Shown here in pieces: positions 7,999 to 39,196 of a stretch of 64,000 nt of DNA. The stretch lies in NCBI RefSeq assembly GCF_025165815.1, contig NZ_JAFFZE010000015.1, positions 124,001-188,000 of the forward strand, given 5' to 3'. Origin of the DNA: Actinophytocola gossypii. GTDB taxonomy: Bacteria > Actinomycetota > Actinomycetes > Mycobacteriales > Pseudonocardiaceae. The position numbers were made by a program, and so were the translations under genes. The notes under the pieces were generated by a model that saw only the letters and a program-made list of their open reading frames with translations, made no database searches and was not told the origin of the DNA. Position 1 is the stretch's first letter. Each line of letters starts with the position of its first letter.

Positions 7999-8963
7999 CT
8001 CCCGACCCTCGGGGTCACAGCGATCCGAGGCCCCCCGCAACCGCACCCCAGGGGAACGTGATGCAAGCCAGCCACAGGTACGTGACCAACCAGGCCCCGA
8101 CTTCGACCAACGCCACCCACACGCGAGAACCGGACCACGCGGATCTGCGTCGTGTGGTGGCGACGGCGTTGGAGGAGGATCTGCGTTACGGCGTGGACGC
8201 GACCACCGTCGCCACCGTGCCGGCTGACGCGGTGGCCGTGGCGGAGCTGACGCCGCGGGTGCCGGGGACGATCGCCGGGATTCCGGCGGCGGTGGCCGTT
8301 TTCGAGGCCGTGCTGGCCGACGATGTCGAGATCGTGGCGCGGCGTGAGGACGGCGCACGCGTCGGTGCCGGTGAGCCGGTGCTGGTGGTGCGCGGACCGG
8401 TTCGCGGGCTGCTGACCGCGGAACGCACGGCACTGAACCTGCTCTGCCACCTGTCCGGCGTGGCGACGGCGACCGCCGCCTGGGTGTCGGCGATCGACGG
8501 CACCGGCGCGGTGGTCCGCGACTCCCGCAAGACGCTGCCGGGGCTGCGGCTGCTCGAGAAGTACGCGGTGCGGTGCGGTGGCGGTGTCAACCATCGCCTC
8601 GGTCTCGGCGACGCGGTGCTGATCAAGGACAACCACGTGCTGGCCGCCGGCTCGGTCACCGCGGCGCTGGCGGCGGCGCGCGCGCACGCGCCGGAACTGC
8701 CGTGCGAGGTGGAGGTGGACACGCTCGACCAACTCGACGAGGCCCTGGCCGCGGGCGCGGAGCTGGTGCTGCTGGACAACTTCACCGTCGAGTCCTGCGT
8801 GGCGGCCGTTCGGCGCCGGAGCGGGTCGACGAAGCTGGAGGTGAGCGGCGGCCTCACCCTTCCGAACGCCCGCGCCTACGCCGAGACCGGCGTCGACTAC
8901 CTGTCCGTGGGCGCCCTGACCCACTCCGCCCCGGCCCTCGACCTGGGCATGGACCTGCGCTGA
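7995..8963 (+). CDS. nadC: Nicotinate-nucleotide pyrophosphorylase (quinolinate phosphoribosyltransferase)
   Basis: NadC converts quinolinate and PRPP to nicotinate mononucleotide. Typical blocks are EDLRYGVDATT, TAERTALNLLCHLSGVAT, DSRKTLPGLRLLEKYAVRCGGG and LLDNFT. The ATG at 7995 overlaps the nadB stop and has GAGGAG four bases upstream. This gives 322 residues, about 35-40 longer than usual; the extra N-terminus is encoded by a dispersed repeat (8038-8090). ATG at 8061, inside the repeat, is the alternative. The conserved part starts near DLRRVVATALEEDL. Confidence 0.93.
   Translation: MTPDPRGHSDPRPPATAPQGNVMQASHRYVTNQAPTSTNATHTREPDHADLRRVVATALEEDLRYGVDATTVATVPADAVAVAELTPRVPGTIAGIPAAVAVFEAVLADDVEIVARREDGARVGAGEPVLVVRGPVRGLLTAERTALNLLCHLSGVATATAAWVSAIDGTGAVVRDSRKTLPGLRLLEKYAVRCGGGVNHRLGLGDAVLIKDNHVLAAGSVTAALAAARAHAPELPCEVEVDTLDQLDEALAAGAELVLLDNFTVESCVAAVRRRSGSTKLEVSGGLTLPNARAYAETGVDYLSVGALTHSAPALDLGMDLR
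8038..8090 (+). repeat. Intercistronic dispersed repeat, copy A (nadB/nadC)
   Basis: This 53-bp segment matches copy B (21642-21694) without gaps at 47 of 53 positions, and shares its 47-bp core with copy C (39150-39196, minus strand). Landmarks are CAGGGGAACGTGA and GCCACA(A/G)GTACGTG. It lies just after the nadB stop in the same direction as the operon and is in frame with nadC if translation starts at 7995. No terminal repeats or duplications were seen. Confidence 0.85.
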
Positions 8964-8994
8964 CCCCGCTCCCGGTGCGCGAGTCGTCCGTTCG

Positions 8995-9573
8995 CTACTC
9001 GGAGACGGCGCGCAGGTCGGCGAGGCCACGCGACAGGTGCTCGCCGGTCGGGGAGCCGGCCGGGTCGAGCAGCCACTGCAGCGACAGACCGTCGCACACG
9101 GCCATGACCCAGCTGGCGACCGCGGTGCAGCGCGGGTCGTCGGGGGTGACGTCCTCGCCCAGGGCGGCGGCGACCATCGTCGCCACCCGGTCGCGGGTGT
9201 TGCGGTACATGCCGGCGAGCTGTTCGCGCAGCACCGGGTCCCGGTCGGCCTGGGCGAGTGCCTCCACGAACGACACCAGCAGCGGACGCCGGCCCGACAG
9301 GCAACCCAGCAGCGTCGACCAGGTCAGGTGGGCGCGCTCGATCGGAGTGGCGTCCGGGTCGGCCATCGCGGCCTGGGCGAGCTGGGTGGTCCACTCCTCG
9401 AACACCGTTCCCAGCGCCGCGTTCAGCAGGCCGGCCTTCGAGCCGAAGTGGTACCCGATCGAGGCGAGGTTCGTCCCCGACGCGGCGACCAGGTCACGCG
9501 CGGTGATGTGCGCGTATCCCTTGTCCTCCAGTAGCTGCCGCGCGGCGGCGAGCAGCTGGTCCCGATGGCCCAC
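8995..9573 (-). CDS. TetR family transcriptional regulator
   Basis: A 192-residue regulator with the TetR DNA-binding helices near the N-terminus (ARDLVAASGTNLASIGYHFGSK shortened here; residues about 25-46) and an all-helical ligand domain. The GTG at 9573 has a TACCGT box six bases upstream (9580-9585), supporting this start over the longer open frame. It is divergent from the P450 gene, with a 14-bp palindrome between them, so it probably controls the P450 and itself. Confidence 0.92.
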   Translation of the reverse strand: MGHRDQLLAAARQLLEDKGYAHITARDLVAASGTNLASIGYHFGSKAGLLNAALGTVFEEWTTQLAQAAMADPDATPIERAHLTWSTLLGCLSGRRPLLVSFVEALAQADRDPVLREQLAGMYRNTRDRVATMVAAALGEDVTPDDPRCTAVASWVMAVCDGLSLQWLLDPAGSPTGEHLSRGLADLRAVSE

Positions 9574-9600
9574 CCGCTGACGGTACCTTGAGCGGTCGTC

Positions 9601-9614
9601 TATACGAGCGTATA
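9601..9614. promoter_or_regulatory. Palindromic operator between TetR and P450 genes
   Basis: TATACG-AG-CGTATA is a perfect palindrome 10 bases before the P450 ATG and 27 bases before the TetR start. It overlaps a TATAAA sequence (9610-9615) that could be the P450 -10 box. Position and symmetry suit a TetR operator; binding is inferred. Confidence 0.65.
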
Positions 9615-9624
9615 AATCAGAAGC

Positions 9625-10938
9625 ATGTCGACGCTCGAGACGACGAACACCACCCTCCCCCCGGGCCCGCGGCTGCCGTCGCTGGTGCAGACGCTGCTGT
9701 TCCTCGTCGCCCGCCGGCAGACCCACCAGCACCTGCAGCGCCGCTTCGGTGACGTGTTCACCACCCGCATCACCGGGCGCCAGATGTTGGTCACGCTCGC
9801 CGACCCGGAACACATCCGCGAGGTGTTCGCCGGCTCGCCCACGGTCTTCCACGCAGGTCAGGGCAACTCGATCCTCCGGCCGGTCATGGGCAAGCACTCG
9901 GTGCTGGTCACCGACGAGGACGAGCACCAGCGCGCCCGCAAGCTCCTCATGCCAGCGTTCAACGGCGCCGCCCTGCGCGGCTACGGCGACATGATGGCGT
10001 CGCTGGCCGCGGCGGACGCCGAGGCGTGGCCGGTCGGCCGCCCGTTCGCGGTGCACCGACGGATGAACGCGGTCACGCTCGAGATCATCCTGCGCGTCGT
10101 GTTCGGTCTCGGCGAGGGCGCTCGGCTGACCGACCTGCGCCCTCGGCTGCGGCGGATCTCCGACATCGGCCCGCTGACCGTCCTCGGTTGGAACTATCCG
10201 AACCTCGGCCGGTACGGCCCGTGGCGACGCAACCGGGAGAACCTGCGCGACGTCGACCGCCTGCTGTACGCCGAGATCGCCGACCGGCGCGGCGCGGGCG
10301 ACCTCGCCGACCGCGGTGACGTGCTGTCCCGCCTGCTGACCGCCGGTGGCGGCGACCTCGCCGACGCCGAGGTCCGCGACCAGATGATCACGCTCCTGCT
10401 GGCGGGTCACGAGACCACCGCGACCGCGCTGGCCTGGTCGTTCCACGAGCTGGCGCGGCGTCCGGCCGTGCAGCGCCGCGCCCAGCGAGCCGCCGACGAC
10501 GGCGACGAGGACTACCTGCAGGCGGTCGCGAAGGAGTCGATGCGCCGGCGGCCGGTGGTCCAGAACGTGGCCCGCGCTCTGACCGAGCCGACCGAGGTCG
10601 CCGGCTACCTGCTGCCCGCGGGCACGATCGTCGGTCCGTCGATCTTACTGGTGCACCGGAATCCGGGACTGCACGAGGATCCGGTGGACTTCCGCCCGGA
10701 GCGCTTCGTCGGCCGGGGCCCGGAGGCGGGAACGTGGATCCCGTTCGGCGGCGGTGTGCGGCGTTGTCTGGGTGCGGGGTTCTCGCTGCGGGAGGCGGGC
10801 GCGGTGCTGCGCGAGGTGCTGATCAGGTACGACCTCCGCCCGGACCGGGCCCGACCGGAGTTCCCGAAGCCGAGGAACGTCACCCTGGTACCGGCCAGGG
10901 GCGCCCGGATCATCGCCACGCCCCGATCTCAGGCGTGA
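9625..10938 (+). CDS. Cytochrome P450 monooxygenase
   Basis: A 437-residue soluble P450. The I-helix oxygen-activation motif AGHETTATA begins at residue 260, the ExxR motif is ESMRRRP, and the heme-binding loop FGGGVRRCLGAGF puts the heme ligand at Cys381. No membrane anchor is visible. No ferredoxin or reductase gene is nearby, so electrons must come from partners elsewhere. It is divergent from a TetR gene and probably induced by a ligand of that regulator. The substrate cannot be read from the sequence; the overall pattern is like the CYP135/138-type enzymes of mycobacteria. Confidence 0.95.
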   Translation: MSTLETTNTTLPPGPRLPSLVQTLLFLVARRQTHQHLQRRFGDVFTTRITGRQMLVTLADPEHIREVFAGSPTVFHAGQGNSILRPVMGKHSVLVTDEDEHQRARKLLMPAFNGAALRGYGDMMASLAAADAEAWPVGRPFAVHRRMNAVTLEIILRVVFGLGEGARLTDLRPRLRRISDIGPLTVLGWNYPNLGRYGPWRRNRENLRDVDRLLYAEIADRRGAGDLADRGDVLSRLLTAGGGDLADAEVRDQMITLLLAGHETTATALAWSFHELARRPAVQRRAQRAADDGDEDYLQAVAKESMRRRPVVQNVARALTEPTEVAGYLLPAGTIVGPSILLVHRNPGLHEDPVDFRPERFVGRGPEAGTWIPFGGGVRRCLGAGFSLREAGAVLREVLIRYDLRPDRARPEFPKPRNVTLVPARGARIIATPRSQA

Positions 10939-11066
10939 CCGCCACGAACACGCGCCGGTGCGATCGCAAACGCCCACGGACAGACGCCCCCCAACCGGGC
11001 AAGGGGGACCCCTGGATCACACACTACCCGCGGGTGCCGACGGTTCGGGGTGTCGCGAGTGGGGGC

Positions 11067-11104
11067 TGTGGACAACTGCGCGGCGTGGGGGCGGGTGTGG
11101 ACAA
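11067..11104 (+). repeat. Second pair of TGTGGACAA boxes
   Basis: Perfect copies at 11067-11075 and 11096-11104, same orientation, 29 bp apart, in the 174-bp gap between the convergent P450 and nitrilase genes. They match the actinobacterial DnaA-box consensus on the complementary strand and resemble the pair at 6357-6384. The rest of this gap is GC-rich with a small AGGGG-GA-CCCCT hairpin near 11010; no gene was seen in it. Confidence 0.45.
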
Positions 11105-11112
11105 CGGGGGTT

Positions 11113-11904
11113 TCAGAGCCGGCGGTTGGCCAGGACCGGGATAGACTCGCGGGTTCGGTTCACCAGCGGTAGGTCCAGGTCGACCACCAGCAGCTCCGGG
11201 GCGGCGCCGAGTTGGGCCGACACCTCGCCCGACGGGCCGGCGACCGTGCTGTACCCGATCCCGGTCGGCGCCTTCGGATGTACCGCCAGCCCCGACTCCG
11301 CCGGGTCGGCCTGCCCGCACGCGACCACCCAGCACGTCGAGTCCAACGCCCGCGCCCGCACCAGCAACTCCCACTGCGACAGCTTCCCCGGCCCCGCCCC
11401 CCACGACGCCCCGACCAGCACCGCCGACGCCCCGTGGTCGGCCAGGCGGGTGAACAGCTCCGGGAACCGCAGGTCGTAGCAGGTCGCGAGGCCGAGGGTG
11501 ACCTCGTCCACGGTCACCGTCACCACGTTCCCGCCGGGCGCCACCGTCCGGGATTCGGTGAACCCGAACGCGTCGAACAGGTGGATCTTGTCGTACCCGA
11601 CGTGCTGACCACGCCCCGTGGCGAGCAGCGTGTTGAACACCCTTCCGTCGTCAGAGGGGGTGAACATCCCCACCACCACGAGCACGTCGTGTGACGACGC
11701 GATCTCCGCCACCGCCGACGCCCACGGCCCGTCGACCGGCTCGGCCAGCGGCGCCAGCGACGTGCCGAAGCACGCCATCGTCGCCTCGGGGAACAGCACC
11801 ACCGAGGCCCCGGCCGCGGCCGCCTCCGCCACCGACGACCGGACGAGCGTCAGGTTGTCCGACGGCGACGGCGTGGACGTGATCTGGCTCAACGCGACCC
11901 GCAC
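11113..11904 (-). CDS. Carbon-nitrogen hydrolase (nitrilase superfamily amidase)
   Basis: A 263-residue member of the nitrilase fold with the full catalytic triad: Glu40 in LFPEATM, Lys106 in YDKIHLFD and Cys142 in ATCYDLRFPE. The WGAGPGK segment and the size resemble the Nit/omega-amidase type, which removes ammonia from omega-amides or deaminated glutathione. The GTG start has GGGAGG five bases upstream. It is divergent from the binding-protein gene. The exact substrate is not visible. Confidence 0.9.
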   Translation of the reverse strand: MRVALSQITSTPSPSDNLTLVRSSVAEAAAAGASVVLFPEATMACFGTSLAPLAEPVDGPWASAVAEIASSHDVLVVVGMFTPSDDGRVFNTLLATGRGQHVGYDKIHLFDAFGFTESRTVAPGGNVVTVTVDEVTLGLATCYDLRFPELFTRLADHGASAVLVGASWGAGPGKLSQWELLVRARALDSTCWVVACGQADPAESGLAVHPKAPTGIGYSTVAGPSGEVSAQLGAAPELLVVDLDLPLVNRTRESIPVLANRRL

Positions 11905-11955
11905 GCTGCCTCCCGAAGTCACCCGATCCACCGACACGAGGATAGGTCCCCCGAC

Positions 11956-11961
11956 TAGGGT
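11956..11961 (+). promoter_or_regulatory. -10 box of the binding-protein gene (leaderless layout)
   Basis: TAGGGT six bases before the GTG at 11968; transcription would start at or next to the start codon. Confidence 0.5.
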
Positions 11962-11967
11962 CGGCCC

Positions 11968-13503
11968 GTGCCCACCTTGTCGTTCCGCCGTCTCGTGCCG
12001 TCGCTGCTCGCGGTCGTGCTGCTGGCCGGCGCCTGCACCGGCGACCCGGCGCCCCCGGCCTCCGGCGACCCGGACGGCACCTCCCTGGTCATCGCGGTCG
12101 CCGAGGAGCCCACCGCGCTGAGCCCGCTCGCCGGCTACGGCCTGCACGGCGCGGCCAAGGTCTTCGACGGCCTGGTGGAGCACGCCGACGACCTCACCCT
12201 GCGCCCGGCACTCGCCACCGGCCTGCCGGCACCCTCCGCGAACGGTCGCACCTGGACGGTCCGGCTCCGGCCCGGCGTCACCTTCTCCGACGGCACCCCG
12301 TTCGACGCACAGGACGTCGTCGCCACCTACCGGGCCGTGCTCGACCAGCGCGACGGGTCGCCGCTGCGGCAACGGTTCTCGATGCTGGACCGGGTGGTCG
12401 CCGACGACTCCTCGACCGTCCACTTCGAACTCAGCGAGCCGTACGCGCCGTTCCCCGAGCTGCTCGTGCTCGGCATCGTGTCCAGCGAATCCGTCGGCGG
12501 CGACGATCCTCCCGTCGGCACCGGGCCCTACGTCCTCGCCGACTGGCAGCGCGGGACCCGCATGGTGCTCGAGGCCAACGAGGACCACTGGGACGGCACC
12601 CCCGCCATCACCGAGGTCACAGTCGAGTTCGTGCCCGGCGACGAGGCCCGCGCGGACCGGATGCGCGAGGGCAAGCTCGACGGGGCCGCGCTGCCCCCGG
12701 CGCTCGCCCGCGAGTTCGAGAACACCGACGGCCTGCAGATCGTGTCGCACAGCGCGGCCGACGTGCACGCGGTGGTGCTGCCGTCGAACCACCCGGTCAC
12801 CGGCGACCCGGCGGTGCGGCTCGCGCTCAACCACGCCATGGACCGCGCGACGCTGGTCGACGACGCGCTCGCCGGACAGGGCCGGGTCGCGCACACCCCG
12901 ATGCCCGGGGTGCTCGCCGAGTTCGTCGAGCCGGGCGCGGTGTTCGAGCACGACCTGACCCGCGCGCTCGACCAGCTGGAGTCCAGCGGTTGGGTCACCG
13001 GCGCGGACGGCATTCGGGTGCGCGACGGCCGGGTCGCCGAGTTCACCCTGACCTACCTCGCCGGCGACATGGTGGCCAGGCGGATGGCGGAGGCGTTCGC
13101 GGCCGGCGCGCGGTCGGTCGGCATCCAGGTGGAGCCCTCGCCGGTGGCCGCCGAGCAGCTGAGCGGCGCATCGCTGGTCGGCTTCGGCGACCCGTTCGAC
13201 CCGGACACGGCCCTCTACCGGTTGCTGCACTCCGGCGGGTCGCTCGGCGGGTACGCGAACGACACCGTCGACGAGGCGCTGGAGGTCGGCCGCACCGCGA
13301 CCGACCCGGCGCTCCGGGCGACCGCGTACCGGCGAATGCAGCGGGCCTACGTGCAGGCGCCCGGCATGGTCGTGCTGGCCGCCCCGAACCACACCTACGT
13401 CATGCGTGAGAGTTGGGACGGCTACGAGCCGGTGGTCGACGGATCGTCCGCCGGCGCGACCTGGGGAGCATGGTGGAACCTGGCGGAATGGACACCCCGA
13501 TGA
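11968..13503 (+). CDS. ABC transporter substrate-binding lipoprotein, family 5
   Basis: A 511-residue lipoprotein. The signal peptide has a lipobox (LLAGAC) with the lipidated Cys at residue 23. The body is that of the peptide/nickel/opine-binding family: VAEEPTALSPL at the mature start, WTVRLRPGVTFSDGTPFDAQDVV, and VGTGPYVL. No permease or ATPase is next to it, so it is an orphan binding protein or uses a remote transporter. Its stop overlaps the start of the aminotransferase gene, so the two are co-expressed. Confidence 0.92.
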   Translation: MPTLSFRRLVPSLLAVVLLAGACTGDPAPPASGDPDGTSLVIAVAEEPTALSPLAGYGLHGAAKVFDGLVEHADDLTLRPALATGLPAPSANGRTWTVRLRPGVTFSDGTPFDAQDVVATYRAVLDQRDGSPLRQRFSMLDRVVADDSSTVHFELSEPYAPFPELLVLGIVSSESVGGDDPPVGTGPYVLADWQRGTRMVLEANEDHWDGTPAITEVTVEFVPGDEARADRMREGKLDGAALPPALAREFENTDGLQIVSHSAADVHAVVLPSNHPVTGDPAVRLALNHAMDRATLVDDALAGQGRVAHTPMPGVLAEFVEPGAVFEHDLTRALDQLESSGWVTGADGIRVRDGRVAEFTLTYLAGDMVARRMAEAFAAGARSVGIQVEPSPVAAEQLSGASLVGFGDPFDPDTALYRLLHSGGSLGGYANDTVDEALEVGRTATDPALRATAYRRMQRAYVQAPGMVVLAAPNHTYVMRESWDGYEPVVDGSSAGATWGAWWNLAEWTPR

Positions 13504-14675
13504 TCGATCTGGCCGCGGTCCGCGCCGACACCCCGGGTTGCCGGCGCGGCGTGTTCCTGGACAGCGCAGGCTCGTCGCTGCCGCCGGTGCAGGTACTCGA
13601 CGAGGTGGTCGGCCACCTGCGGCGGGAGGCCGAGGTCGGCGGCTACGTCGCGCACGACGAGCGCCTGCCGGACCTCGAGGCCGGCTACGGGCTGATGGCG
13701 TCGCTGCTGGGCTGCGAGCCGGACGAGGTGGCGTTCACCGACAGCGCCACCCGTTCGTGGCTGGCCGCGTTCGACGCCGTGCCGCTGACGGCGGGCGACC
13801 GGGTGCTGGTGACCGAGGTCGAGTACGCGGGCAACGCGATCCCGCTGCTGCGCCGGGCCGCCGAGGTGGGCGCGACCGTCGAGCCGGTGCCGAGTACGCC
13901 GGCCGGCGAGATCGACGTCGCCGCGCTGCGGGAGATGCTGGACGAGCGCGTGGCGCTGGTGTCGCTGGTGCACGTGCCGACCAACGGCGGCCTGGTGAAC
14001 CCGGTCGCCGAGGTGGCCGAGGCCGCGCACGAGGTCGGCGCGCTGGTGCTGCTGGACGCGTGCCAGTCGGTGGGCCAGCTGCCGGTGCTCGCGTCCGAGC
14101 TGGGCGCGGACATCGTGTCGGGCACCGGCCGGAAGTGGCTGCGCGGCCCGAGGGGCACCGGTTTCCTGGTGGTCCGCCGGCCGGTACTCGAGCGACTGCG
14201 GCCTCGGCAGGTCGACCTGCGGTCGGGCACCTGGATCTCGCCGGACAGCTACGAGCTTCGGGCGGACGCGCGGGTGTTCGAGCTGTGGGAGTCGAGCACC
14301 GCCGACCGGCTCGGCCTGCTGGCGGCGGCCCGCTACGCGCTCGACCTGGGCGTCGACGCCATCGCCGACGCCGTGCTCGCCCGGGCCGAGCACCTGCGCG
14401 CCGGGCTGGCCGAGGTGCCCGGCGTCGAGGTCCACGACCTGGGCACGAACCGCTGCGGCATCGTGAGCTTCACGGTGGCGGACCGGGAGCCGGAGCAGGT
14501 CCGGGCCGAGTTGGCCGCCCGCGACGTCACGGTCACGGTCACCGGCGTCGGCTCGACCCAGTACGACATGACGCGCCGGGGCCTGCCGGAGGTCGTGCGC
14601 GCCTCGCCGCACTACTTCACGTCACCGGACCAGCTCGACGAGGCGGTCGCCGCCGTGGCGGCACTGAAGCGCTGA
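13488..14675 (+). CDS. Class V aminotransferase (PLP-dependent)
   Basis: A protein of about 395 residues with the class V fold. The PLP lysine is Lys216 in GTGRKWLRGPRGTG, and the Asp/Gln pair LLDACQSVGQ precedes it. The family includes cysteine desulfurases, isopenicillin N epimerases and EgtE-like lyases; this one resembles the epimerase/EgtE side, but the reaction is not determined. ATG at 13488 and ATG at 13500 (overlapping the upstream stop) are both possible starts. Coupling to a family-5 binding protein hints at handling of an imported amino acid or peptide, which is inference. Confidence 0.85.
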   Translation: MDTPMIDLAAVRADTPGCRRGVFLDSAGSSLPPVQVLDEVVGHLRREAEVGGYVAHDERLPDLEAGYGLMASLLGCEPDEVAFTDSATRSWLAAFDAVPLTAGDRVLVTEVEYAGNAIPLLRRAAEVGATVEPVPSTPAGEIDVAALREMLDERVALVSLVHVPTNGGLVNPVAEVAEAAHEVGALVLLDACQSVGQLPVLASELGADIVSGTGRKWLRGPRGTGFLVVRRPVLERLRPRQVDLRSGTWISPDSYELRADARVFELWESSTADRLGLLAAARYALDLGVDAIADAVLARAEHLRAGLAEVPGVEVHDLGTNRCGIVSFTVADREPEQVRAELAARDVTVTVTGVGSTQYDMTRRGLPEVVRASPHYFTSPDQLDEAVAAVAALKR

Positions 14676-14708
14676 GACCTGGCTGAGAAGCGTCACGGAA
14701 CTGTCGGT

Positions 14709-14737
14709 GGCCCCCGGTACGCTGGTGACCGGGGGCC
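14709..14737. terminator. Bidirectional hairpin between convergent genes
   Basis: A perfect 10-bp stem (GGCCCCCGGT with ACCGGGGGCC) and a 9-base loop sits between the aminotransferase and carboxypeptidase stops. There is no T-run, as is common for actinobacterial terminators. Confidence 0.75.
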
Positions 14738-14755
14738 GGAGGCCAACCGACCCGG

Positions 14756-16003
14756 TCAGCCGGCGTTGGTGAGCAGGATGTCGACGGCCGCGTCGTTGCG
14801 GGCGGTCTGCGGGCCGATCTCCTCGTCCGGCGGGTAGAAGCCGTCGATGCCCCCGCTCGCCGGGTACATCTCGAAGCAGAAGCTGAGCACCTTGTGGGTG
14901 CCCCACATCCAGTCGTTGATGTCACCGTCGGTGATGTACAGGCTGCTCGACTGGCCCGGGGTGTAGCCGTTCGATTCGGCCATCCGGGTGCCGACGTCCT
15001 CGAACCGCGCGTACTCCTCCTCGGTCATCCCCTCGGTGACCTGGTCGTTCGTGTGCCCGAACGGCCACAGCACCAGCTCGCTGAACGTGTGGAAGTCGAT
15101 GTGCGCGGTGATCTGCTGCTCGCCGCCGACCACGCGCGAGTTCACCCAGTTCTGTACGTTCGTCACTTCCGGTGCCGACGCCGCGGACGCGCCCCGGTAG
15201 GTCTCGGCCGACGGCGTGCCGCTCGAACCGCCGCAGCAGCCCCACTTGTAGGAGAAGTTGCGGTTCAGGTCCGTCCCCACCGACCCGTCCTCGTTCGGCT
15301 GGCGGTTCTTGCGCCAGCCCTGGTACTCCCCGCCGGAGATGTCGAACTCGGCGCCGTCCGGGTTCTGCGACGGGATCACCCAGATCTCCCGGGTGTCCAC
15401 GAAACCGGTGACCGTCTCGTCCGAGCCGTAACCGTCCGTGAACCGGTTGACGATCCGGAGGCACATCTCCGTGGTCAGGTGCTCGCGGGCGTGCATGGTG
15501 CAGGTGAACAGCACCTCTGGCTCGTCCTCGTCGGTCGCGGCGTTGTCGCTGATCTTGACGATCGGCATGTCGCGGCCCTCGTACGAGCTGCCGACGCTGG
15601 ACAGCGACGCGATCTCGGCGTGCTCGTCCGCCGCCGCCCGCAGCTCGGCCACCATTTCGTCGTAGGTGTGGTAGCCCTCGTCGCCGGCCGGGAAGTCGGC
15701 GACGGACCGGGGGCCGGACCGCGACGTGAGCGCCGCCGCCACGTCGCCGGTCAGCTCGACGTCGAAACCACGCGCACGCAGGGCCGACGCCTGCGCCGGG
15801 CTCGCCACCACCTCGACCGCGCCGCCGCGGACGCCCAGGACGTCCACCCCGGAGCGGGCCACCTCGGTGCGCGCCTCGGCGTCGGCGGCGGTCACGCGAT
15901 AGAGCCCACGATCGGGCGATTCCTGGGCGGAAGCCGACCATCCGGTGACGAGCGCCAACGCGCCCACGACCGCGACCAGCGCCAGCCGGCGACGTGTCCT
16001 CAT
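14756..16003 (-). CDS. Secreted zinc carboxypeptidase, family M14
   Basis: A 415-residue exported enzyme. The signal peptide is residues 1-27 ([20 protein letters not shown] core). A propeptide-like region reaches about residue 105. The catalytic domain shows zinc ligands His171 and Glu174 ([11 protein letters not shown]), the third ligand in [17 protein letters not shown], the TDLNRNF substrate block and the catalytic Glu in FCFEMYP. The ATG at 16003 has a strong GGGAGGGG site; the longer frame lacks one. It probably trims C-terminal residues from peptides outside the cell. Confidence 0.95.
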
Positions 16004-16145
16004 GTCCCCTCCCGGGTCCGTGCCTGCGCGGTCGAGCCTGCTGCGCGTGCCCGACCAGCGACAACCCGTCGTTGGTCGGAGATCGGACACCACCGCCGAC
16101 CGCCAGCCGAAGGTAGTGGGCCGTTCGGCCGCGCGCCGGACGGCT

Positions 16146-16151: not shown

Positions 16152-16186
16152 GGAGACCCCCGGAGGAACGATCCAGAGGAAGCCCG

Positions 16187-20924: not shown

Positions 20925-21595
20925 GAAACGAGCTGGCCGGTCTCATCGAACGGATGACCGGCGACGAGAAACACGACTGGGCCGCCGGGTCCACAATAGA
21001 CGTCCTGTGGGTCCTCTACGACCGGGTGCTGAACGTCACCCCGGACACCGTCGACGACCCGGACCGCGACCGGTTCCTGCTCTCCAAGGGCCACGGACCC
21101 ATGTCCTACTACGCCGTCCTGGCCGCCAAGGGCTTCCTCGACCACGACCTGCTCGACACCTGGACGAGCTTCGGCTCACCGCTCGGCCAGCACCCCGACC
21201 GGGTCCTGGTGCCCGGGGTCGAGATCGGCTCCGGCTCCCTCGGCCACGGGCTCGGGCTCGGCGTCGGCACCGCGCTCGGCCTCCGCGCGCGACGACGCCG
21301 CGGCCGGGTCTTCGTGCTGGTCGGGGACGGGGAGCTCGACGAGGGCAGCAACCACGAGGCCATCGCCATCGCCGGGCGGCTCGGCCTCGACCGGCTCACC
21401 ACCGTCGTGGTCGACAACTCCTCCGCGAGCCACGGCTGGCCGGGCGGCATCGCCCGCCGGTTCGACGTCGAGGGCTGGCACACCGCCACCGTCGACGGCC
21501 GCGACCACGACGCCCTGCACCGCGCCTTCACCGCCGCCCACCCCGGCCGCCCGTCCGCGGTCGTGGCCACCATCGAACCCGAGGAGTACACATGA
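20909..21595 (+). CDS. Transketolase, N-terminal (TPP-binding) subunit
   Basis: A 228-residue subunit of a two-gene transketolase. It carries the thiamine pyrophosphate motif GDGELDEGSNHEA...DNSS (about residues 139-172) and LSKGHGPMSYYAVLAAKGFL. The frame is open from GTG 20858, but its first 16 codons have low GC at third positions, unlike the rest, so ATG 20909 (with CGAGG upstream) or 20921 is preferred. The partner subunit follows after a repeat-containing gap. Split enzymes of this kind often serve in secondary sugar or cofactor pathways rather than the central pentose pathway. Confidence 0.88.
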   Translation: MLASMRNELAGLIERMTGDEKHDWAAGSTIDVLWVLYDRVLNVTPDTVDDPDRDRFLLSKGHGPMSYYAVLAAKGFLDHDLLDTWTSFGSPLGQHPDRVLVPGVEIGSGSLGHGLGLGVGTALGLRARRRRGRVFVLVGDGELDEGSNHEAIAIAGRLGLDRLTTVVVDNSSASHGWPGGIARRFDVEGWHTATVDGRDHDALHRAFTAAHPGRPSAVVATIEPEEYT

Positions 21596-21641
21596 CACGA
21601 CACGCGCCGACCTCGCCTTCGAACCAACCCCACCCCCTCGT

Positions 21642-21694
21642 CAACCGCACCTCAGGGGAACGTGACGCGACCCAGCCACAAGTACGTGAGCAAC
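21642..21694 (+). repeat. Intercistronic dispersed repeat, copy B (tktN/tktC)
   Basis: Gap-free match to copy A over 53 bp with six differences, and to copy C over 47 bp with five. It lies in the 149-bp gap between the two transketolase genes, in the direction of transcription. An ATGA start at 21592 with GAGGAG upstream would read through it in frame into tktC. The residue frame that changes least between copies reads SGERDATQPQVR. Confidence 0.85.
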
Positions 21695-21744
21695 TGAACC
21701 CTCTTTCCCATCGTGACCACCGCATAGAAACGCGGGGAGGCGGG

Positions 21745-22623
21745 ATGCGCGATGTGTTCGTGCACACCGTGACCGACGCGCTGGACACCGACCCGCGGCT
21801 CGCCGTCGTCACCGCGGACATCTCCTCGGCCGCGTTCGACGACGCGCGGGCGCGGCACCCGGACCGCGTGGTCAACCTCGGCATCCGGGAGCAGGCGATG
21901 ATCGGCGTCGCCGGCGGGCTCGCGCTCACCGGGCTGCGGCCGGTGGTGCACAGCTACGCCCCGTTCCTCGTGGAGCGCCCGTTCGAGCAGCTCAAGCTCG
22001 ACCTCGGGCACCAGGACGTCGGCGCGGTGCTGGTCAGCATCGGCGGCTCCTACGACGCCCCGGCCAGCGGCCGGACCCACCAGAGCCCGGCCGACGTCGC
22101 GCTGCTCGACACCCTGCCCGGCTGGACCGTGCACGTGCCGGGACACCCCGACGAGGTGGAGCCGCTGTTGCGGGACGCCATCGCCGGCACCGGCCGGGTC
22201 TACCTGCGACTGTCCACCCGGGAGAACACCACCGCCCACCCGATCGGGCGGTTCTCCCCGCTGCGGCAGGGCAGCCGCGGCGTGGTGCTGGCCGTCGGAC
22301 CGACGCTGGACACCGTGCTCGACGTCACGTCCACCCTGGACGTCACGGTGCTGTACGCGAGCACGATCCGGCCGTTCGACCACGCCGGGCTCCTGGCCGC
22401 GGTGGCGGGCTCCCGGCCGAACGTCGTGCTGGTCGAGCCGTACCTGGCGGGCACGTCCGCGCACGGCGTGGGGGAGGCGCTCGCCGACGTGCCGCACCGG
22501 GTGCGCTCGCTCGGGGTCCGCCGCGACGTCGAGGTGCGGGCGTACGGCACCCCGCCCGAGCACGACGTCGTGCACGGCCTGGACGCCGACGGGATAGCGG
22601 CGTCGATCCGGGCGTTCCTCTAG
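21745..22623 (+). CDS. Transketolase, C-terminal subunit
   Basis: A 292-residue subunit with the pyrimidine-binding domain of transketolase (VTADISSAAF, VVNLGIREQAMIGVAGGLAL with the catalytic Glu, HSYAPFLVERPFEQLK) and the C-terminal transketolase domain. The ATG at 21745 has GGGGAGG upstream. A second coupled start at 21592 would add 51 residues from the repeat region. It must pair with the N-subunit upstream to be active. Its TAG stop is part of a -10 box for hisH. Confidence 0.9.
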   Translation: MRDVFVHTVTDALDTDPRLAVVTADISSAAFDDARARHPDRVVNLGIREQAMIGVAGGLALTGLRPVVHSYAPFLVERPFEQLKLDLGHQDVGAVLVSIGGSYDAPASGRTHQSPADVALLDTLPGWTVHVPGHPDEVEPLLRDAIAGTGRVYLRLSTRENTTAHPIGRFSPLRQGSRGVVLAVGPTLDTVLDVTSTLDVTVLYASTIRPFDHAGLLAAVAGSRPNVVLVEPYLAGTSAHGVGEALADVPHRVRSLGVRRDVEVRAYGTPPEHDVVHGLDADGIAASIRAFL

Positions 22624-31200: not shown

Positions 31201-31538
31201 CCGCGTTGGACCCCGGGATCGCGGGGCGGCTCAAGCGCAACGCGGACGGGCTGGTGTGCGCGGTGGCGCAGCGGCGCGGCACCGGCGAGGTGCTGATGGT
31301 CGCCTGGATGGACGACGAGGCGCTGCACCGCACGCTCACCACCCGGCGCGCGACGTACTTCTCCCGCAGCCGGGGACGCCTGTGGGTGAAGGGGGAGACC
31401 TCCGGTCACACGCAGTACGTGCACGAGGTGCGCCTCGACTGTGACGGCGACACCGTGCTGCTCGTCGTCGACCAGGAGGGTGCGGCCTGTCACACCGGTG
31501 CGGCCACCTGCTTCGACGAGGACGTCCTGCTCACCTGA
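31197..31538 (+). CDS. hisI: Phosphoribosyl-AMP cyclohydrolase
   Basis: HisI opens the ring of PR-AMP. The 113-residue protein contains only the cyclohydrolase domain, without a fused HisE, as is usual in actinobacteria. The zinc Cys residues are in [12 protein letters not shown] and [23 protein letters not shown] and [18 protein letters not shown] are typical. Its stop is shared in an 8-base TCANNTGA overlap with the convergent TetR gene. Confidence 0.97.
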
Positions 31539-32136
31539 TCGTGTCGGTGATGTAGCGCTGCAGGGTGGGCGCGACCGCGGCGACCATCGTGTCGACGTCC
31601 GCCGAGGCCAGCGGCTCGAACCGGGCGACGTAGCGCACCAGGCCCATGCCGACCAGCTGCGAGGCGACCAGCGTCGCGCGGAACTCCGCGTCGTCCGGCG
31701 CGACCGGCGCCAGGACCTTCCCCACCACGTTCCTGACGAGGAAGTCCCGCAGCGCGTGCACGGCCAGCTCGTGGCTGGTGATGCTCCGCACCAGCGCGGT
31801 GAACACGCCACCGCCGGTGGTGTCCCAGATGCCGATGAACGTGCGCACGATCCGCTCGCCGAGCCCGTCGACGTCACCGTCGAGCAGCCGCTCGACCACG
31901 TCCGCCGGGTTGAACGGCAGCTTGAGCACCGCCTCCGCGAACAGGCCCTCCTTGCTGCCGAACCAGTGGTTCACCATGGCCGCGTCGACCTCCGCCCGCG
32001 CGGCGATCGCGCGCACGGTGGCGCCGTCGTAGCCCTGCTCGCTGAACACCGCCCGTGCCGCGTCGAGCAGGGCCGCGCGCGTGTCCGTGCCTCCGGGCCG
32101 CCGCCCCCGGCGCCGAGGAACATCCTGGTGTCGCAC
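31531..32136 (-). CDS. TetR family regulator (paralogue of the one at 29831-30403)
   Basis: A 201-residue regulator; helix-turn-helix [20 protein letters not shown] (about residues 45-64). A basic, Arg-rich tail precedes it. The GTG at 32136 has CATGAT six bases upstream, a weak leaderless layout. It is divergent from trpE with a gap of about 65 bases. The target is unknown; trpE regulation is possible from position but not supported by a clear operator. Confidence 0.88.
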
Positions 32137-32201
32137 CGGCTCATCATGCCCGACCCGGCCCTGAGGACGCCCGCGGCCGAGCTGGCGGGACAATGGCCGG
32201 C

Positions 32202-33740
32202 ATGGTCAGCGTGATGGAGCCCGAGGCCGTCCGGCGCGGGCTCGGGGTGGTCAGTCCCACCCGTGCGGAGTTCCACCGGCTGGCGGCCGACCACCGGGTC
32301 ATCCCGGTCGTGCGGCGCCTGCTCGCGGACGCCGAGACCCCCGTCGGGGTCTACCGCAAGCTCGCCCAGGGCAGGCCCAACACCTACCTCCTCGAGTCCG
32401 CCGAGAACGGGCGCTCCTGGTCGCGCTGGTCGTTCGTCGGCGTGCACAGTGCCGCCGTACTCACCGAGCGTGATGGCAAGGCGCACTGGACGGGTACCCC
32501 GCCGGTCGGGCTGCCGGAGTCCGGGGACCCGCTGGCGGCCCTGCGGGAGACCATGGCGATTCTGCACACCGAGCGACTGCCCGGCCTCCCGCCGCTGACC
32601 GGCGGCATGGTCGGCTACCTCGGCTACGACGCCGTGCGCCGGCTCGAACGGCTCCCCGACCGCACCGACGACGACCTGCGGCTGCCCGAGCTGGCGATGC
32701 TGCTGGCCACCGACCTCGCCGCGCTGGACCACCACGAGGGCACCATCACCCTCATCTCCAACGCGGTGAACTGGGACGACAGCCCGGAGCGGGTGGACGC
32801 CGCCTACGACGCCGCCGTCGCGCGGCTCACCGAGATGACCGAGCGGCTGCAGCAGTCCGCGCCGCCGACGGTCGCCGTGTTCGACCACCCCACGCCCGAG
32901 TACCTGCGCCGCCGCGACCGCGCCGACTACACCGCCGCCGTGCGGACCGCCAAGGAGGCGATCCACGCCGGTGAGGCGTTCCAGGTGGTGCTCTCCCAGC
33001 GGTTCGAGCTCGAGACCGAGGCCGATCCGCTGGACGTCTACCGGGTGCTGCGGACCACCAACCCCAGCCCGTACATGTACCTGCTGCGGCTCGACGGGTT
33101 CGACGTCGTCGGCTCCAGCCCCGAGGCACTGGTCACCGTCCGCGACGGAGTGGCCACGACTCACCCGATCGCCGGCACCCGGTGGCGTGGCGTCGACCCG
33201 GACGAGGACGCGATCCTCGAGAAGGACATGCTGGCCGACGAGAAGGAGCGCGCGGAGCACGTCATGCTCGTCGATCTGGGCCGCAACGACCTCGGCCGGG
33301 TGTGCCGGCCGGGCACCGTTCGGGTCGTCGACTTCTTCCGGGTCGAGCGCTACAGCCACGTCATGCACATCGTGTCCACGGTCACCGGCGTCCTCGACGA
33401 CGACCGCACGGCGTTCGACGCGGTCAAGGCCTGCTTCCCGGCCGGCACGCTCTCCGGCGCGCCGAAGCCGCGCGCGATGGAGCTCATCGAGGAGTTGGAA
33501 CCCACCCGCCGCGGCCTCTACGGCGGCGTCGTCGGCTACCTGGACTTCGCCGGCGACGCCGACACCGCCATCGCCATCCGAACCGCGCTGATGCGCGACG
33601 GCGTGGCCTACGTGCAGGCCGGCGCCGGGATCGTGGCCGACTCCGACCCGGTCGCCGAGGACACCGAGTGCGTGAACAAGGCCCGTGCCGTGCTCGCCGC
33701 GATCGCCACCGCCCAGTCGATGCGACCGGCCGATGGCTGA
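32202..33740 (+). CDS. trpE: Anthranilate synthase component I
   Basis: TrpE makes anthranilate from chorismate with ammonia from a TrpG subunit that is not in this window. The protein of about 512 residues has the feedback site ([16 protein letters not shown]), [27 protein letters not shown]-type, [21 protein letters not shown], and [23 protein letters not shown]. ATGs at 32193, 32202 and 32214 are possible starts. No leader peptide with Trp codons or other attenuator was found in the short upstream gap. Confidence 0.96.
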
Positions 33741-34206
33741 GCAGCCCGATCGCCGTCCACTCTGGATGGTCCTGCTGCCGCTCCTCGGCGCGGCGGCGGC
33801 ACTGTGGGGCTCGACCAGGCTCGACGGCGGCCCGGGGTCGGGCACCGGGCTGGCCCTGGTGGCGCTCGCCGGCGCGGGCGGCGCGATCGCCGTCGGCGGC
33901 TGGGGCAGGCGGGTCGTCGGCGCGCTCGTGGCGGTCGCCGGTCTGCTCGCGGGCTGGCGGGCACTCGCCGCCGACGGCGCGGGCGCCGGCAGGTGGGTGG
34001 CGCTGCTCGGCGCGGTCCTGCTGGTCGTCGCCGGGGTCCTGGTGGTCCGGCTCGCCACGCGGCTGCCGACGATGGGCGCGAGGTACGCGTCGCCCGCCGC
34101 CCGCCGGGCTTCCGGCGACCCGGACGGTGACCCGGACAAGGACCTGTGGGACGGGCTGTCCGAGGGCCGTGATCCCACCGCCGCCGAGGTCGAGGATGAA
34201 CGGTGA
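33733..34206 (+). CDS. Trp-operon-associated membrane protein (TIGR02234 type)
   Basis: A 157-residue protein with four hydrophobic segments between about residues 12 and 110, then an acidic hydrophilic tail rich in Asp and Glu. Actinobacterial trp operons carry a conserved membrane protein between trpE and trpC (Rv1610-like, family TIGR02234), and this gene has the same place and shape. It overlaps the trpE stop. Function is not established. Confidence 0.82.
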
Positions 34207-34270
34207 ACGTGGACCCGGTAACGAGTCGTCGTGCGGGACGGAGTTAGCATTCCTTGGGCGGGAAGGGGCA

Positions 34271-34354
34271 ATGCTGGTGACTGATAGCACCTGCGACACA
34301 TCGGAAGTGGCGTTCGCGCCGCTACCGGACGACGCCGGCGAGCGTGTGCGGTGA
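34271..34354 (+). CDS. 27-residue ORF coupled to trpC
   Basis: An ATG frame with a strong GGAAGGGG site (34261-34268) that ends in a TGA overlapping the trpC GTG (GTGA). The predicted peptide is acidic with one Cys and no Trp, so it is not a classic attenuator leader. It may be a real micro-protein or a device that couples ribosome entry to trpC. The 64 bases between the membrane protein gene and this ORF show no terminator. I do not recognise it. Confidence 0.45.
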
Positions 34355-35156
34355 GTGTTCTCGAGTCGATCATCGAAGGGGTCCGGGCGGACCTCGCGGT
34401 GCGTGAGTCCGCGCTCCCGTTCGAGACCGTGAAGGAGCGCGCGGCGAAGGCGGCGCCGCCACGCGACGCCGTGGCCGCGCTGCGCGGTTCCGGCATCGGC
34501 GTGATCGCCGAGGTGAAGCGGCGTAGCCCGTCCAAGGGCGACCTCGCGTCGATCGCCGACCCGGCGTCGCTGGCCAGGGACTACGCCGACGCCGGTGCTC
34601 GGGTGATCAGCGTGCTCACCGAGGAACGGCGGTTCGGCGGCTCGCTCGCCGACTTCGACGCGGTGCGCGCCGTGGTGGACGTCCCCTTGCTGCGCAAGGA
34701 CTTCGTGGTCAGCCCGTACCAGGTGCACGAGGCCCGGATGCACGGCGCCGACCTGGTGCTGCTGATCGTGGCCGCCCTGGAGCAGAACGCGCTGGTCGCC
34801 CTGCTCGACCGGGTCGAGTCGCTCGGCATGACCGCGCTGGTCGAGGTGCACACCGCCGAGGAGGCCGACCGCGCGCTGGAGGCGGGCGCGTCGGTCATCG
34901 GCATCAACGCCCGCGACCTGCACACCCTCGAGGTCGACCGGGAGGTGTTCGGCCGGCTCGCGCCCGGCCTGCCGTTCGAGGTGCTCAAGATCGCCGAGTC
35001 CGGCGTCCGCGGCCCCGGCGACCTGATGACCCACGCCGGCGCTGGTGCCGACGCGGTCCTGGTCGGCGAGAGCCTGGTCGCGAGCCCCGACCCGAAGGCG
35101 GCGCTGGTCCAGCTGGTCACCGCCGGTTCGCACCCCGCCTGCCCGAGGCCGAGCCG

Positions 35157-35160
<4 letters not shown>
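34351..35160 (+). CDS. trpC: Indole-3-glycerol phosphate synthase
   Basis: The 269-residue barrel closes the indole ring from CdRP. Motifs: [15 protein letters not shown] (catalytic Glu/Lys), [48 protein letters not shown] and [12 protein letters not shown]. It is a stand-alone enzyme with no fused TrpF, so PRA isomerase must come from another protein such as PriA. The GTG start overlaps the micro-ORF; the stop overlaps trpB. Confidence 0.96.
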
Positions 35161-36382
<1,222 letters not shown>

Positions 36383-36383
<1 letters not shown>

Positions 36384-37180
36384 TGGGACGCCTCGACCCG
36401 GTGTTCGCCCGTGCCCGCGCCGAGGGGCGCGCCGCCCTGGTCGGCTACCTGCCGGCCGGCTACCCGACCGTCGACGGCTCGGCCGAGCGGCTCGCCGCGA
36501 TGATCGACTCCGGCTGCGACGTCGTCGAGATCGGCGTGCCGTACTCCGATCCGGTGATCGACGGCCCGACCATCCAGGCAGCGGCCGACGTCGCGCTCAA
36601 GGGCGGGTTCCGGCTGCGTGACCTGTTCCGGGTGGTGGAGCACGTGGCGTCGGCGGGCGGGCACGCGGTCGTGATGACCTACTGGAACCCGGTGCACCGC
36701 TACGGCGTCGACCGCTTCGCCCGTGACCTGGCCGCCGCCGGTGGGCTCGGCATGATCACCCCGGACCTGATCCCGGACGAGGCGGAGGACTGGCTGGCCG
36801 CGTCGGCCGCCCACGACCTGGACCGGATCTTCCTGGTCGCGCCGTCCTCGTCGGCGGAACGGCTGACCTCGACGACCGCCGCGACCTCGGGCTTCCTGTA
36901 CGCGACGGCGGTGATGGGCGTGACCGGCGCGCGGGAGCGGGTCGGCAGCGCGGCCGCGGGCCTGGTCGCGCGGGCCAGGGAGCACACCGACCTGCCGATC
37001 GCCGTGGGTCTCGGCGTGCGGTCGGGCGACCAGGCGGCCGAGGTGGCCGGTTTCGCCGACGGCGTGGTCGTCGGCTCCGCGTTCGTGTCGAAGGCCGACG
37101 AGGTCGCCGGGGTGCGGGAGCTGGCCGAGGAACTCGCGGACGGGGTCCGCCGGCCGGTCGTGCCGGCCGCCCAGACGTAG
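36383..37180 (+). CDS. trpA: Tryptophan synthase alpha subunit
   Basis: The 265-residue barrel cleaves indole-3-glycerol phosphate and channels indole to TrpB. It has the catalytic Glu in CDVVEIGVPYSDPVIDGPTIQAA, MTYWNPVHRYG and ATAVMGVTGAR. VGLGVRSGDQA is the phosphate-binding end. The ATG shares one base with the trpB stop. The last visible gene of the trp run. Confidence 0.97.
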
Positions 37181-37230
37181 GTGCGGCGCCGGTAGGCCGC
37201 CCTGGTGTGTCCGGCGTCGCCGCCGACCGT

Positions 37231-37236
37231 TACGGT
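37231..37236 (+). promoter_or_regulatory. -10 box of lgt (leaderless layout)
   Basis: TACGGT seven bases before the lgt GTG at 37244. It supports this start; no Shine-Dalgarno site is visible. Confidence 0.45.
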
Positions 37237-37243
37237 GACGCGC

Positions 37244-38317
37244 GTGAACGTGGCGTCCAGTGTCTTCCTGGCGAACATCCCGAGCCCCGATCGTGGCGTG
37301 TGGGAGCTCGGTCCGATCCCGCTGCGGGCCTACGCGCTGTGCATCATCGCCGGCATCGTGGTGGCGATCTGGTGGGGCGAGCGGCGGTGGGTCGCGCGCG
37401 GCGGCCGGGCCGGCACGGTCACCGACATCGCGGTCTGGGCGGTGCCGTTCGGCCTGGTCGGCGGGCGCCTCTACCACGTGGCGACGGACTGGCACCGGTA
37501 CTTCGGCGAGGGCAAGAACCCGCTGGACGCGCTGCGGATCTGGGACGGCGGCCTCGGTATCTGGGGTGCGATCGCGTTCGGGGCGGTCGGCGCGTGGTTC
37601 GGCTGCCGGTCCAAGAAGGTGCCGCTGCCGGTGTTCGCCGACGCGATCGCGCCGGGCGTGGTCGTCGCCCAGGCGATCGGGCGAGTGGGCAACTACTTCA
37701 ACCAGGAGCTGTACGGCGGGCCGACGGACCTGCCGTGGGGCCTGGAGATCTACCAGCGCGTGAACGAGCTCGGCGACGCGGACAACCTCAACGGGGTGGC
37801 GGTCAACCACATCCCGATCGAGGTGGTGCACCCGACGTTCCTCTACGAGCTGCTGTGGAACCTCGCGGTGGCCGGGCTCGTGGTGTGGGCGGACCGCCGG
37901 TTCCGGCTCGGCCACGGGCGCGCGTTCGCCATCTACGTCGCCGGCTACACCCTCGGCCGCACCTGGATCGAGCTGATGCGCACCGACCCCGCCACGATGG
38001 TGTTCGGGGTGCGGGTCAACGTGTGGGTGTCGGTCCTGGTGTTCCTCGGCGCGGTCGTCTACCTGGTGCTGGCGAAGAAGCGGGGTCCGAGGGAGGACCT
38101 GGCCGCCATCCAGGGCACCGAACCGCCCACCGACGACACGTCCAGGGACGACGACGCCGCCGTCGCCGACAAGGACGCCGCCGATGCCGCCGATGCCGAC
38201 AAGGACGCCGAGGACGCCGAGGACGCCCACACGGACAAGGACAAGGACGCGGAGAAGGACGCCGAGCCCGGAACCGACGAGCCGGCCAAGGAGTCGACGC
38301 CGTCCGGCAAGGAGTGA
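37244..38317 (+). CDS. lgt: Prolipoprotein diacylglyceryl transferase
   Basis: Lgt attaches diacylglycerol to the lipobox Cys of prelipoproteins in the membrane, such as the three lipoproteins in this window. The 357-residue protein has seven predicted helices, the essential GRVGNYFNQELYGGPTDLPW block, HPTFLYELLWN and the conserved Arg/Gly of the Lgt fold. After about residue 285 there is a long hydrophilic tail of alternating Asp, Lys, Ala and Glu. Such tails are common in actinobacterial Lgt and are probably cytoplasmic. Confidence 0.95.
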   Translation: MNVASSVFLANIPSPDRGVWELGPIPLRAYALCIIAGIVVAIWWGERRWVARGGRAGTVTDIAVWAVPFGLVGGRLYHVATDWHRYFGEGKNPLDALRIWDGGLGIWGAIAFGAVGAWFGCRSKKVPLPVFADAIAPGVVVAQAIGRVGNYFNQELYGGPTDLPWGLEIYQRVNELGDADNLNGVAVNHIPIEVVHPTFLYELLWNLAVAGLVVWADRRFRLGHGRAFAIYVAGYTLGRTWIELMRTDPATMVFGVRVNVWVSVLVFLGAVVYLVLAKKRGPREDLAAIQGTEPPTDDTSRDDDAAVADKDAADAADADKDAEDAEDAHTDKDKDAEKDAEPGTDEPAKESTPSGKE

Positions 38318-38320
38318 GCC

Positions 38321-39094
38321 CTACCCGCGCGTCGGGGTCACCACGACGTTCCCGTCGCCGGTGCTGAGGATCTCGACGTTCGCCGCGTAGTGCCGGCGCA
38401 CGGTCTCGCGGGTCAGCACCTCGGCCGGGGTCCCGGTGGCGACCACCCGGCCACCGTCCATCAGCACCAGCCGGTCCGCGTACTGCGCCGACAGCGTCAG
38501 GTCGTGCAGGGTGCTCACCACCGTCGCGCCCTCCTCCGCGCGCAGCCGGTCGACCAGATCGAGCAGCGCCTGCGCGTGCCCGATGTCCAGGCCGGTCGTC
38601 GGCTCGTCCAGCAGCAACAGCCCCGCCTGCTGCGCCAGCACCCGCGCCAGCACCGCGCGCTGCCGCTCCCCGCCGGACAGCGTCCGCAGCGCGCGGCCGG
38701 CCAGCCCGGACAGGTCGAGCCGGTCGAGCACCTGCTCCACCACCGCCAGGTCCGAGCGCCGCTCCCTGGCCAACGGGGCCAGGTGCGGGGTCCGGCCAAG
38801 CAGCACGTAGTCGGTCACCGTCAGCCGCTCCGGCAGCTCCGGGGTCTGCGGCGCGTACGCGACGGCCCGCGCCCGCTCCCGCGCCGACAGCCCGGACACC
38901 GGCGCCCCGTCCAGCAGGATCTCGCCGTCGTGCGCCACCACCCCGACGATCGACTTCAGCAGCGACGACTTGCCGGCCCCGTTCGGCCCGATCACCGCCA
39001 CCCACGCGCCGGCCGGCACGTCCAGCGACACCGACGACGCCACCACGCGCGTCCCGTACCGCGCCGACACCGAGCGCAACGCCAACGCGGTCAC
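38321..39094 (-). CDS. btuD: ABC transporter ATPase, cobalamin type (BtuD-like)
   Basis: A 257-residue FecE/BtuD-family ATPase: Walker A GPNGAGKSSLL, signature TLSGGERQRAVLARVLAQ, Walker B LLLLDEPTTGLD and switch His in VVSTLHDLTL. The GTG start has GGGGAGG seven bases upstream. It is the last gene of the btuF-btuC-btuD run; cobalamin as substrate is inferred from the riboswitch at the head of the operon. A dispersed repeat separates it from btuC. Confidence 0.9.
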   Translation of the reverse strand: MTALALRSVSARYGTRVVASSVSLDVPAGAWVAVIGPNGAGKSSLLKSIVGVVAHDGEILLDGAPVSGLSARERARAVAYAPQTPELPERLTVTDYVLLGRTPHLAPLARERRSDLAVVEQVLDRLDLSGLAGRALRTLSGGERQRAVLARVLAQQAGLLLLDEPTTGLDIGHAQALLDLVDRLRAEEGATVVSTLHDLTLSAQYADRLVLMDGGRVVATGTPAEVLTRETVRRHYAANVEILSTGDGNVVVTPTRG

Positions 39095-39149
39095 TGTTCC
39101 GCCTCCCCGGATTTTTCCCTGTTGGTCGCGTTGAGAAGGGAGGGTCCGG

Positions 39150-39196
39150 CTTGGGCACGTACTTGTGGCCGGGTTGCGTCACGTTCCCCTGAGGTG
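39150..39196 (-). repeat. Intercistronic dispersed repeat, copy C (btuC/btuD)
   Basis: On the minus strand this 47-bp core matches copy B at 42 of 47 positions. It starts 29 bases after the btuC stop and ends 56 bases before the btuD start, again in the sense direction of its operon. Unlike copies A and B it is not read as part of the downstream protein, since no in-frame start lies before it. Confidence 0.85.

Follow-up and report, generated by a model that had tools for sequence, protein, structure and literature searches.

A dispersed MIRU-like repeat, probably a non-autonomous mobile element with a putative translation relay, at gene starts within operons of Actinophytocola gossypii

A repeat at three gene junctions of the window

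The window analysed here, a 64-kb stretch of the 7.38-Mb genome of Actinophytocola gossypii (Pseudonocardiaceae), contains three gene pairs, nadB/nadC, tktN/tktC and btuC/btuD, that are each separated by one copy of the same repeat. Of the six flanking genes, Pfam backs five (nadC, tktN, tktC, a btuC-like FecCD gene and a btuD-like ABC ATPase), the nadB product having been left out of that scan. The copies and their parts are as follows:

7995 to 8144, plus strand: copy A, between nadB and nadC; match to the sequence model at 8031 to 8144
8050 to 8084, plus strand: conserved core of copy A, AGGGGAACGTGA-N9-GCCACANGTACGTG, from the core pattern search
21592 to 21744, plus strand: copy B, between tktN and tktC; match to the sequence model at 21636 to 21744
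21654 to 21688, plus strand: conserved core of copy B, from the core pattern search
39091 to 39228, minus strand: copy C, the intact form, between btuC and btuD
39156 to 39190, minus strand: conserved core of copy C, from the core pattern search
39095 to 39108, minus strand: right end of copy C, GGGGAGGCGGAACA, with a GGAGG Shine-Dalgarno sequence 7 nt ahead of the btuD GTG

A search of the window for the conserved core returned these three copies only, and 100 dinucleotide-preserving shuffles of the window gave 0 matches. On realignment, A and B agree at 47 of 53 positions and B and C at 42 of 47, exactly the identities given in the original prediction, which was also right in placing all three copies in sense orientation between cistrons, directly after the stop of the upstream gene. 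Its length of about 50 bp needs revision: in the window, the repeat covers about 130–160 nt between the upstream stop and the vicinity of the downstream start, at a G+C content of 63–67%. The spacing that it had proposed within the core (N12) gives 0 matches in the genome; the corrected spacing of N9 gives 25 with at most 3 mismatches, 13 of them without any mismatch.

Copy C displays the complete anatomy. A GTGA at 39228–39225 combines the btuC stop with the GTG of the element, the element body follows at 39224–39095 (130 nt), and a second GTGA at 39094–39091 combines the element stop with the GTG of btuD, so that a 45-codon open reading frame (ORF) extends from GTGA to GTGA. Copies A and B have kept the left ATGA and lost the right RTGA, and their frames continue into nadC and tktC, respectively. 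In copy A, the left ATGA (7995–7998) includes the nadB stop (7996–7998) and the right end is eroded, lacking GGAGG as well as RTGA; read from 7995, the element passes in frame into nadC. In copy B, the left ATGA (21592–21595) includes the tktN stop, GGAGG lies at 21737–21741 ahead of the tktC ATG at 21745, and no stop interrupts the frame from 21592 before it enters tktC. Because tktC keeps an ATG after a Shine-Dalgarno sequence, which may be its true start, nadC alone of the two is a reasonable candidate for N-terminal extension.

Copies across the genome and the family

Using a sequence model of 115 positions, we found 35 matches in the host genome at E ≤ 1e-3 (45 places are listed at E ≤ 10). 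The host-genome copies are fairly old, with 89% identity in the best pair and a median of 75% over 276 pairs. Matches occurred in 14 of 60 genomes, all of them in the family of the window (14 of 36 family genomes, 0 of 24 outside it); six belong to the same genus, with 3–63 matches each, and eight to other genera, with 1–27. The original prediction thus described a real repeat, and one of larger extent than its three copies showed. The spread within the family is patchy, covering Actinophytocola, Amycolatopsis and further genera; none of the convincing matches is mycobacterial. A coarser search of 298 genomes of the order, at reduced sensitivity, matched nine, seven of them in the family of the window. 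The two outside it (L280, L281) do not have the conserved right end, and we discounted them as chance matches. Adjacent tandem pairs were found at three places (G004:C35, L114 and G261:C12). Literature searches listed no earlier description of the repeat.

REP/REPIN and MITE repeats are small, dispersed and non-autonomous, and the present repeat resembles them in being small, dispersed and probably non-autonomous. If it were an ordinary repeat of the MITE or REP type, with terminal inverted repeats or palindromes on which a transposase acts and no link to translation, that would account for a dispersed, patchy, multi-copy and lineage-specific distribution. However, we see no palindrome and, by eye, no terminal inverted repeat; the consensus fold pairs no ends (in an alignment that lacks the leftmost part), and the repeat sits at stop/start junctions, in sites and frames that are non-random. 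We regard this explanation as quite improbable. Searches of plasmids and phages gave no match to the repeat, and hence no carrier was found, nor was a mobilising enzyme for it.

Insertion at stop/start overlaps and empty sites in relatives

At the junctions occupied by the repeat, the stop of the upstream gene typically overlaps the start of the downstream gene, mostly as ATGA or GTGA, and intact copies carry such a tetramer on both sides. In 35 coupled copies with both tetramers, the distance between tetramers is 122–176 nt (a range that describes a subset picked by having a coupled ORF). The left and right tetramers are identical in 25 of these 35 and different in 10, the identical ones being as expected for a duplicated target.

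We compared the junctions with those of five relatives in the genus, which are taken to include Actinophytocola xanthii (G004), A. algeriensis (G003), A. oryzae (G001) and a metagenome-assembled genome (G005). The btuC/btuD junction is empty in four of the five, showing a single ATGA or GTGA (G001, G002, G003, G005). At nadB/nadC there is an ATGA or GTGA overlap and no element in G001, G003 and G004, and a short gap, again with the element absent, in G002. The element is missing from all five at tktN/tktC, at senX3/regX3 and at cysD/cysN, where all read CTGATG. The paaA/paaB genes are joined by a simple ATGA or GTGA overlap in four of five relatives (G005 has ~30 nt of unrelated sequence), the junction at a CoxS-like gene is ATGA or GTGA in the four of four relatives retrieved, and element-free junctions were found at an aconitase-like gene and at a FecCD gene, each in two of two relatives. 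The presence of a copy in one species and its absence from the same junction in others are seen directly in the sequences, and the insertions look like gains in the lineage of the window. Less clear cases are an mce gene, at which four relatives lack the element and orthology is less sure; the gene at L018, at which five relatives lack it and the junction is not a simple RTGA; a symporter gene (L021), for which one relative lacks the element and one holds a short remnant; and the pxpA junction.

Two other kinds of short insert were noticed at these places. In G005, the nadB/nadC junction (L199, upstream of the NadC match) holds another tandem repeat, of two ~38-nt units that each read RTG...CGCGGAGGCGG..., possibly a second, shorter family of similar kind. 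In A. xanthii (G004), the btuC/btuD junction (L150) and the symporter junction (L252) carry inserts of ~26–30 nt that resemble the two ends of the element joined with the middle deleted; they occupy junctions that hold full copies in the host genome (G000) and look like scars or like insertions of old date that the two genomes share. When six genomes were searched by pattern for such short deletion derivatives, one match was returned (L252), and L150 was missed.

Orientation and gene context

The fetched loci allowed us to read 124 copies out of about 260 places in the 14 genomes, picked mostly from the best matches, so that divergent copies are under-represented. Gene context was assigned by a simple coding test based on GC by codon position rather than by a gene finder; the assignments are therefore approximate and some labels wrong (those of L069 and L080 are doubtful, the junctions being normal by eye). 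By this test, 92 of the 124 copies lie in sense between two co-directional coding-like frames, 10 are antisense, and 22 are elsewhere or unclear; for the host genome alone (n = 34), 25 are in sense between co-directional frames and one is antisense. The binomial probability of the sense bias is 9e-18 over all copies and 8e-7 for the host genome, with relatedness among copies ignored. Genome-wide placement at random, as an alternative to a preference for sense orientation inside operons, was not found; on the other hand, antisense copies do exist, and so do copies outside operons, some at convergent or divergent places. Upstream of pxpA, A. oryzae (G001; L310) has an antisense copy and the host genome (L002) a sense copy: these are independent insertions, in opposite directions, near one place.

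One half-copy was met among the fetched loci. At ~1485–1535 of L025 (minus strand), the element is represented by its left half alone, fused to a coding stretch that, we presume, resembles a photolyase end, and the place is probably a rearrangement breakpoint.

An open reading frame between the upstream stop and the downstream start

In its intact form, the element has an ORF whose start overlaps the upstream stop and whose stop overlaps the downstream start; a GGAGG Shine-Dalgarno sequence precedes the latter. For the frame analysis, partial copies were dropped (115 of 124 kept), and frames were counted in those 69 of the 115 near-full copies whose junction was recognised, the 46 without an RTGA or TTGA junction being excluded. 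Read in the frame set by the upstream stop, 62 of the 69 are free of stops to the element end, compared with 27 and 13 in the two shifted frames. In 40 of the 69 the ORF ends at the next start or beside it, in 22 it runs on for at least 100 codons, and in 7 it stops early; 9 of the 22 run-on copies have an in-frame start codon at most 12 nt from the element end. Besides NadC, the run-on cases include the CoxS-like and the aconitase-like protein. The distance from left to right tetramer is 2 modulo 3 in 34 of 41 copies, and with such a distance one ORF can end exactly on the next start.

For the ribosome-binding site, 133 of 145 copies were kept as near-full; GGAGG is present in 112 of them and GAGG alone in 14 more. 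An ATG or GTG most often follows 7 nt after ends of the GAGG+CGG type (37 copies), or 10 nt after them in 21, and 49 of the 126 copies with GAGG have no ATG or GTG within the next 16 nt. The right end reads GGCGG(A/T/G)CTAG in L055, L065, L067, L083, L090, L115, L278 and some others; there, a TAG stop can overlap a GTG start (TAGTG) in place of RTGA.

The core is read in all three frames, differing by subfamily, and two stops in it are mostly absent where they would fall in frame. Of the 14 copies reading the frame of the core TGA, 11 lack it and three retain it, against 9 lacking it among 60 others (P = 1e-5). A stop triplet just ahead of GGGG, which would block another frame, occurs in 1 of the 49 copies using the frame concerned and in 7 of 25 others (P = 0.002). 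The copies are related to one another; after thinning to 90, 85 and 80% identity, P is 0.005, 0.14 and 0.02 for the core TGA and 0.013, 0.028 and 0.017 for the stop before GGGG.

These data bear on a competing account, that of targeting alone. On this account, a short TGA-centred site is recognised, most instances of which, in genomes so densely packed with genes, are stop/start overlaps, and the apparent relay is a by-product on which nothing is selected later. The target at the empty sites is indeed short and TGA-centred, and the antisense and non-operon copies, with the opposite orientations at pxpA in G000 and G001, fit it. What such an account leaves unexplained are the in-frame lengths in 34 of 41 copies, the loss of stops at two different core sites in the frame actually used, and the retention of GGAGG at the downstream end, and we think it unlikely.

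Little sign of selection on a peptide or an RNA fold

The original prediction had read a frame SGERDATQPQVR in the repeat and considered selection on a short peptide. A conserved small protein would be in keeping with an ORF that is usually open and with the likeness of the type I peptides among themselves. Against it, the core is read in three frames among the copies, Pfam has no match for two representative element peptides, and neither of the two frame classes examined has an excess of diversity at third positions: codon positions 1, 2 and 3 have mean diversities of 0.12, 0.25 and 0.17 in one class (35 copies) and of 0.22, 0.15 and 0.14 in the other (9 copies). A selected peptide sequence is hardly credible on these figures.

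A structured or processed RNA element, such as a riboswitch, an attenuator or an RNase site, is suggested by a core that is strongly conserved in its nucleotide sequence. Yet in the consensus fold of 24 copies none of the 12 predicted pairs shows a compensatory change, which speaks against a conserved fold. Rfam holds no match to the repeat at the gathering score (at E ≤ 1, four loci gave two matches only, far below threshold), and the host operons are unrelated to one another. We take an RNA element to be very improbable. With no third-position excess and no covarying pair, it seems to be openness that is retained, not a peptide or an RNA shape. Open frames of such length are not rare at 63–67% GC, so that openness by itself would be weak evidence here; what carries the case is the combination of junctions, length classes and frame-specific stops.

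A putative translation relay

The explanation that we favour, with considerable confidence, is that the repeat is a MIRU-like, probably non-autonomous mobile element that inserts at gene starts within operons and keeps coupling by a translation relay. It would insert at a gene start inside an operon, typically at an ATGA or GTGA stop/start overlap, leaving the tetramer on both sides. A ribosome finishing the upstream gene would re-initiate on the element ORF, translate its 41–57 codons and then re-initiate on the downstream gene, ahead of which the element would supply GGAGG; translation would thus probably pass through the element to the next gene by means of its own small ORF and ribosome-binding site. 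In the alternative outcome, the downstream RTGA would be lost and the element frame would continue into the next gene. Insertion that keeps translational coupling would explain why copies are tolerated at these places, mostly in sense. We infer that ribosomes use this relay and that the bias arises from survival after insertion rather than from targeting. Of the possibilities first raised for the repeat, a translation element (probably) and a mobile sequence tolerated at operon junctions both fit the 92 of 124 sense copies and the empty sites.

Short dispersed repeats of this general layout in operons are familiar as mycobacterial interspersed repetitive units (MIRUs), reportedly described by Supply et al. 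in 1997. According to a recent review, MIRUs are apparently mobile, insert at start codons and have an internal ORF coupled to the gene with a spacing of -4 nt (PMC12548453); they are 40–100 bp long (PMC2734929), and both M. leprae and the M. tuberculosis complex have them at the senX3-regX3 junction (PMC4213456). One copy of the host genome occupies this known MIRU place, with a histidine kinase gene on one side and, on the other, the gene of a RegX3-like regulator (best PDB match 2oqr, regX3, E = 3e-65). Further points of likeness are the dispersal of a short repeat over many intergenic places (35 matches in the host genome), insertion at start codons with empty sites in relatives, an internal ORF that overlaps the next start (40 of 69 copies; in the window copy C and neither A nor B), and the three tandem pairs. 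Unlike MIRUs, the repeat belongs to Pseudonocardiaceae and not to mycobacteria, and its intact copies measure 122–176 nt against the 40–100 bp given there; the core read in three frames and the run-on into the next gene are features that the available MIRU text does not mention. Because length and host differ, and because the likeness seen is one of layout and place, we write "MIRU-like" and not "MIRU".

Extended to N-terminal additions, the comparison includes the Rickettsia palindromic elements, which are palindromic and mobile, insert within genes and can add in-frame residues to proteins. The present repeat would likewise be mobile and able to add in-frame protein residues, but these would lie at the N-terminus, at junctions.

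More tentatively, and with a good deal of reserve, we suggest a class of "translation-relay" mobile elements that would be targeted to start codons, have no terminal inverted repeats and have, as their only coding property under selection, openness in whichever of the three frames the site imposes on them. Such a class would comprise frame-adapted lineages with stops purged per frame, would hit the senX3-regX3 junction as MIRUs do, and would give operon proteins new N-terminal extensions. The favoured explanation would extend to another family of actinobacteria a mechanism that has so far been discussed for the MIRUs of mycobacteria, and the three frames, the lengths in steps of 3 and the frame-specific absence of stops form a natural experiment that makes translational coupling testable. 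Gene starts that adjoin the element may be misannotated. Insertion of this kind also raises the question of the machinery that inserts DNA at start codons, as some activity presumably moves the element. In G014, taken to be Amycolatopsis arida, copy pairs are up to 95% identical, which makes this species the best place to seek current activity.
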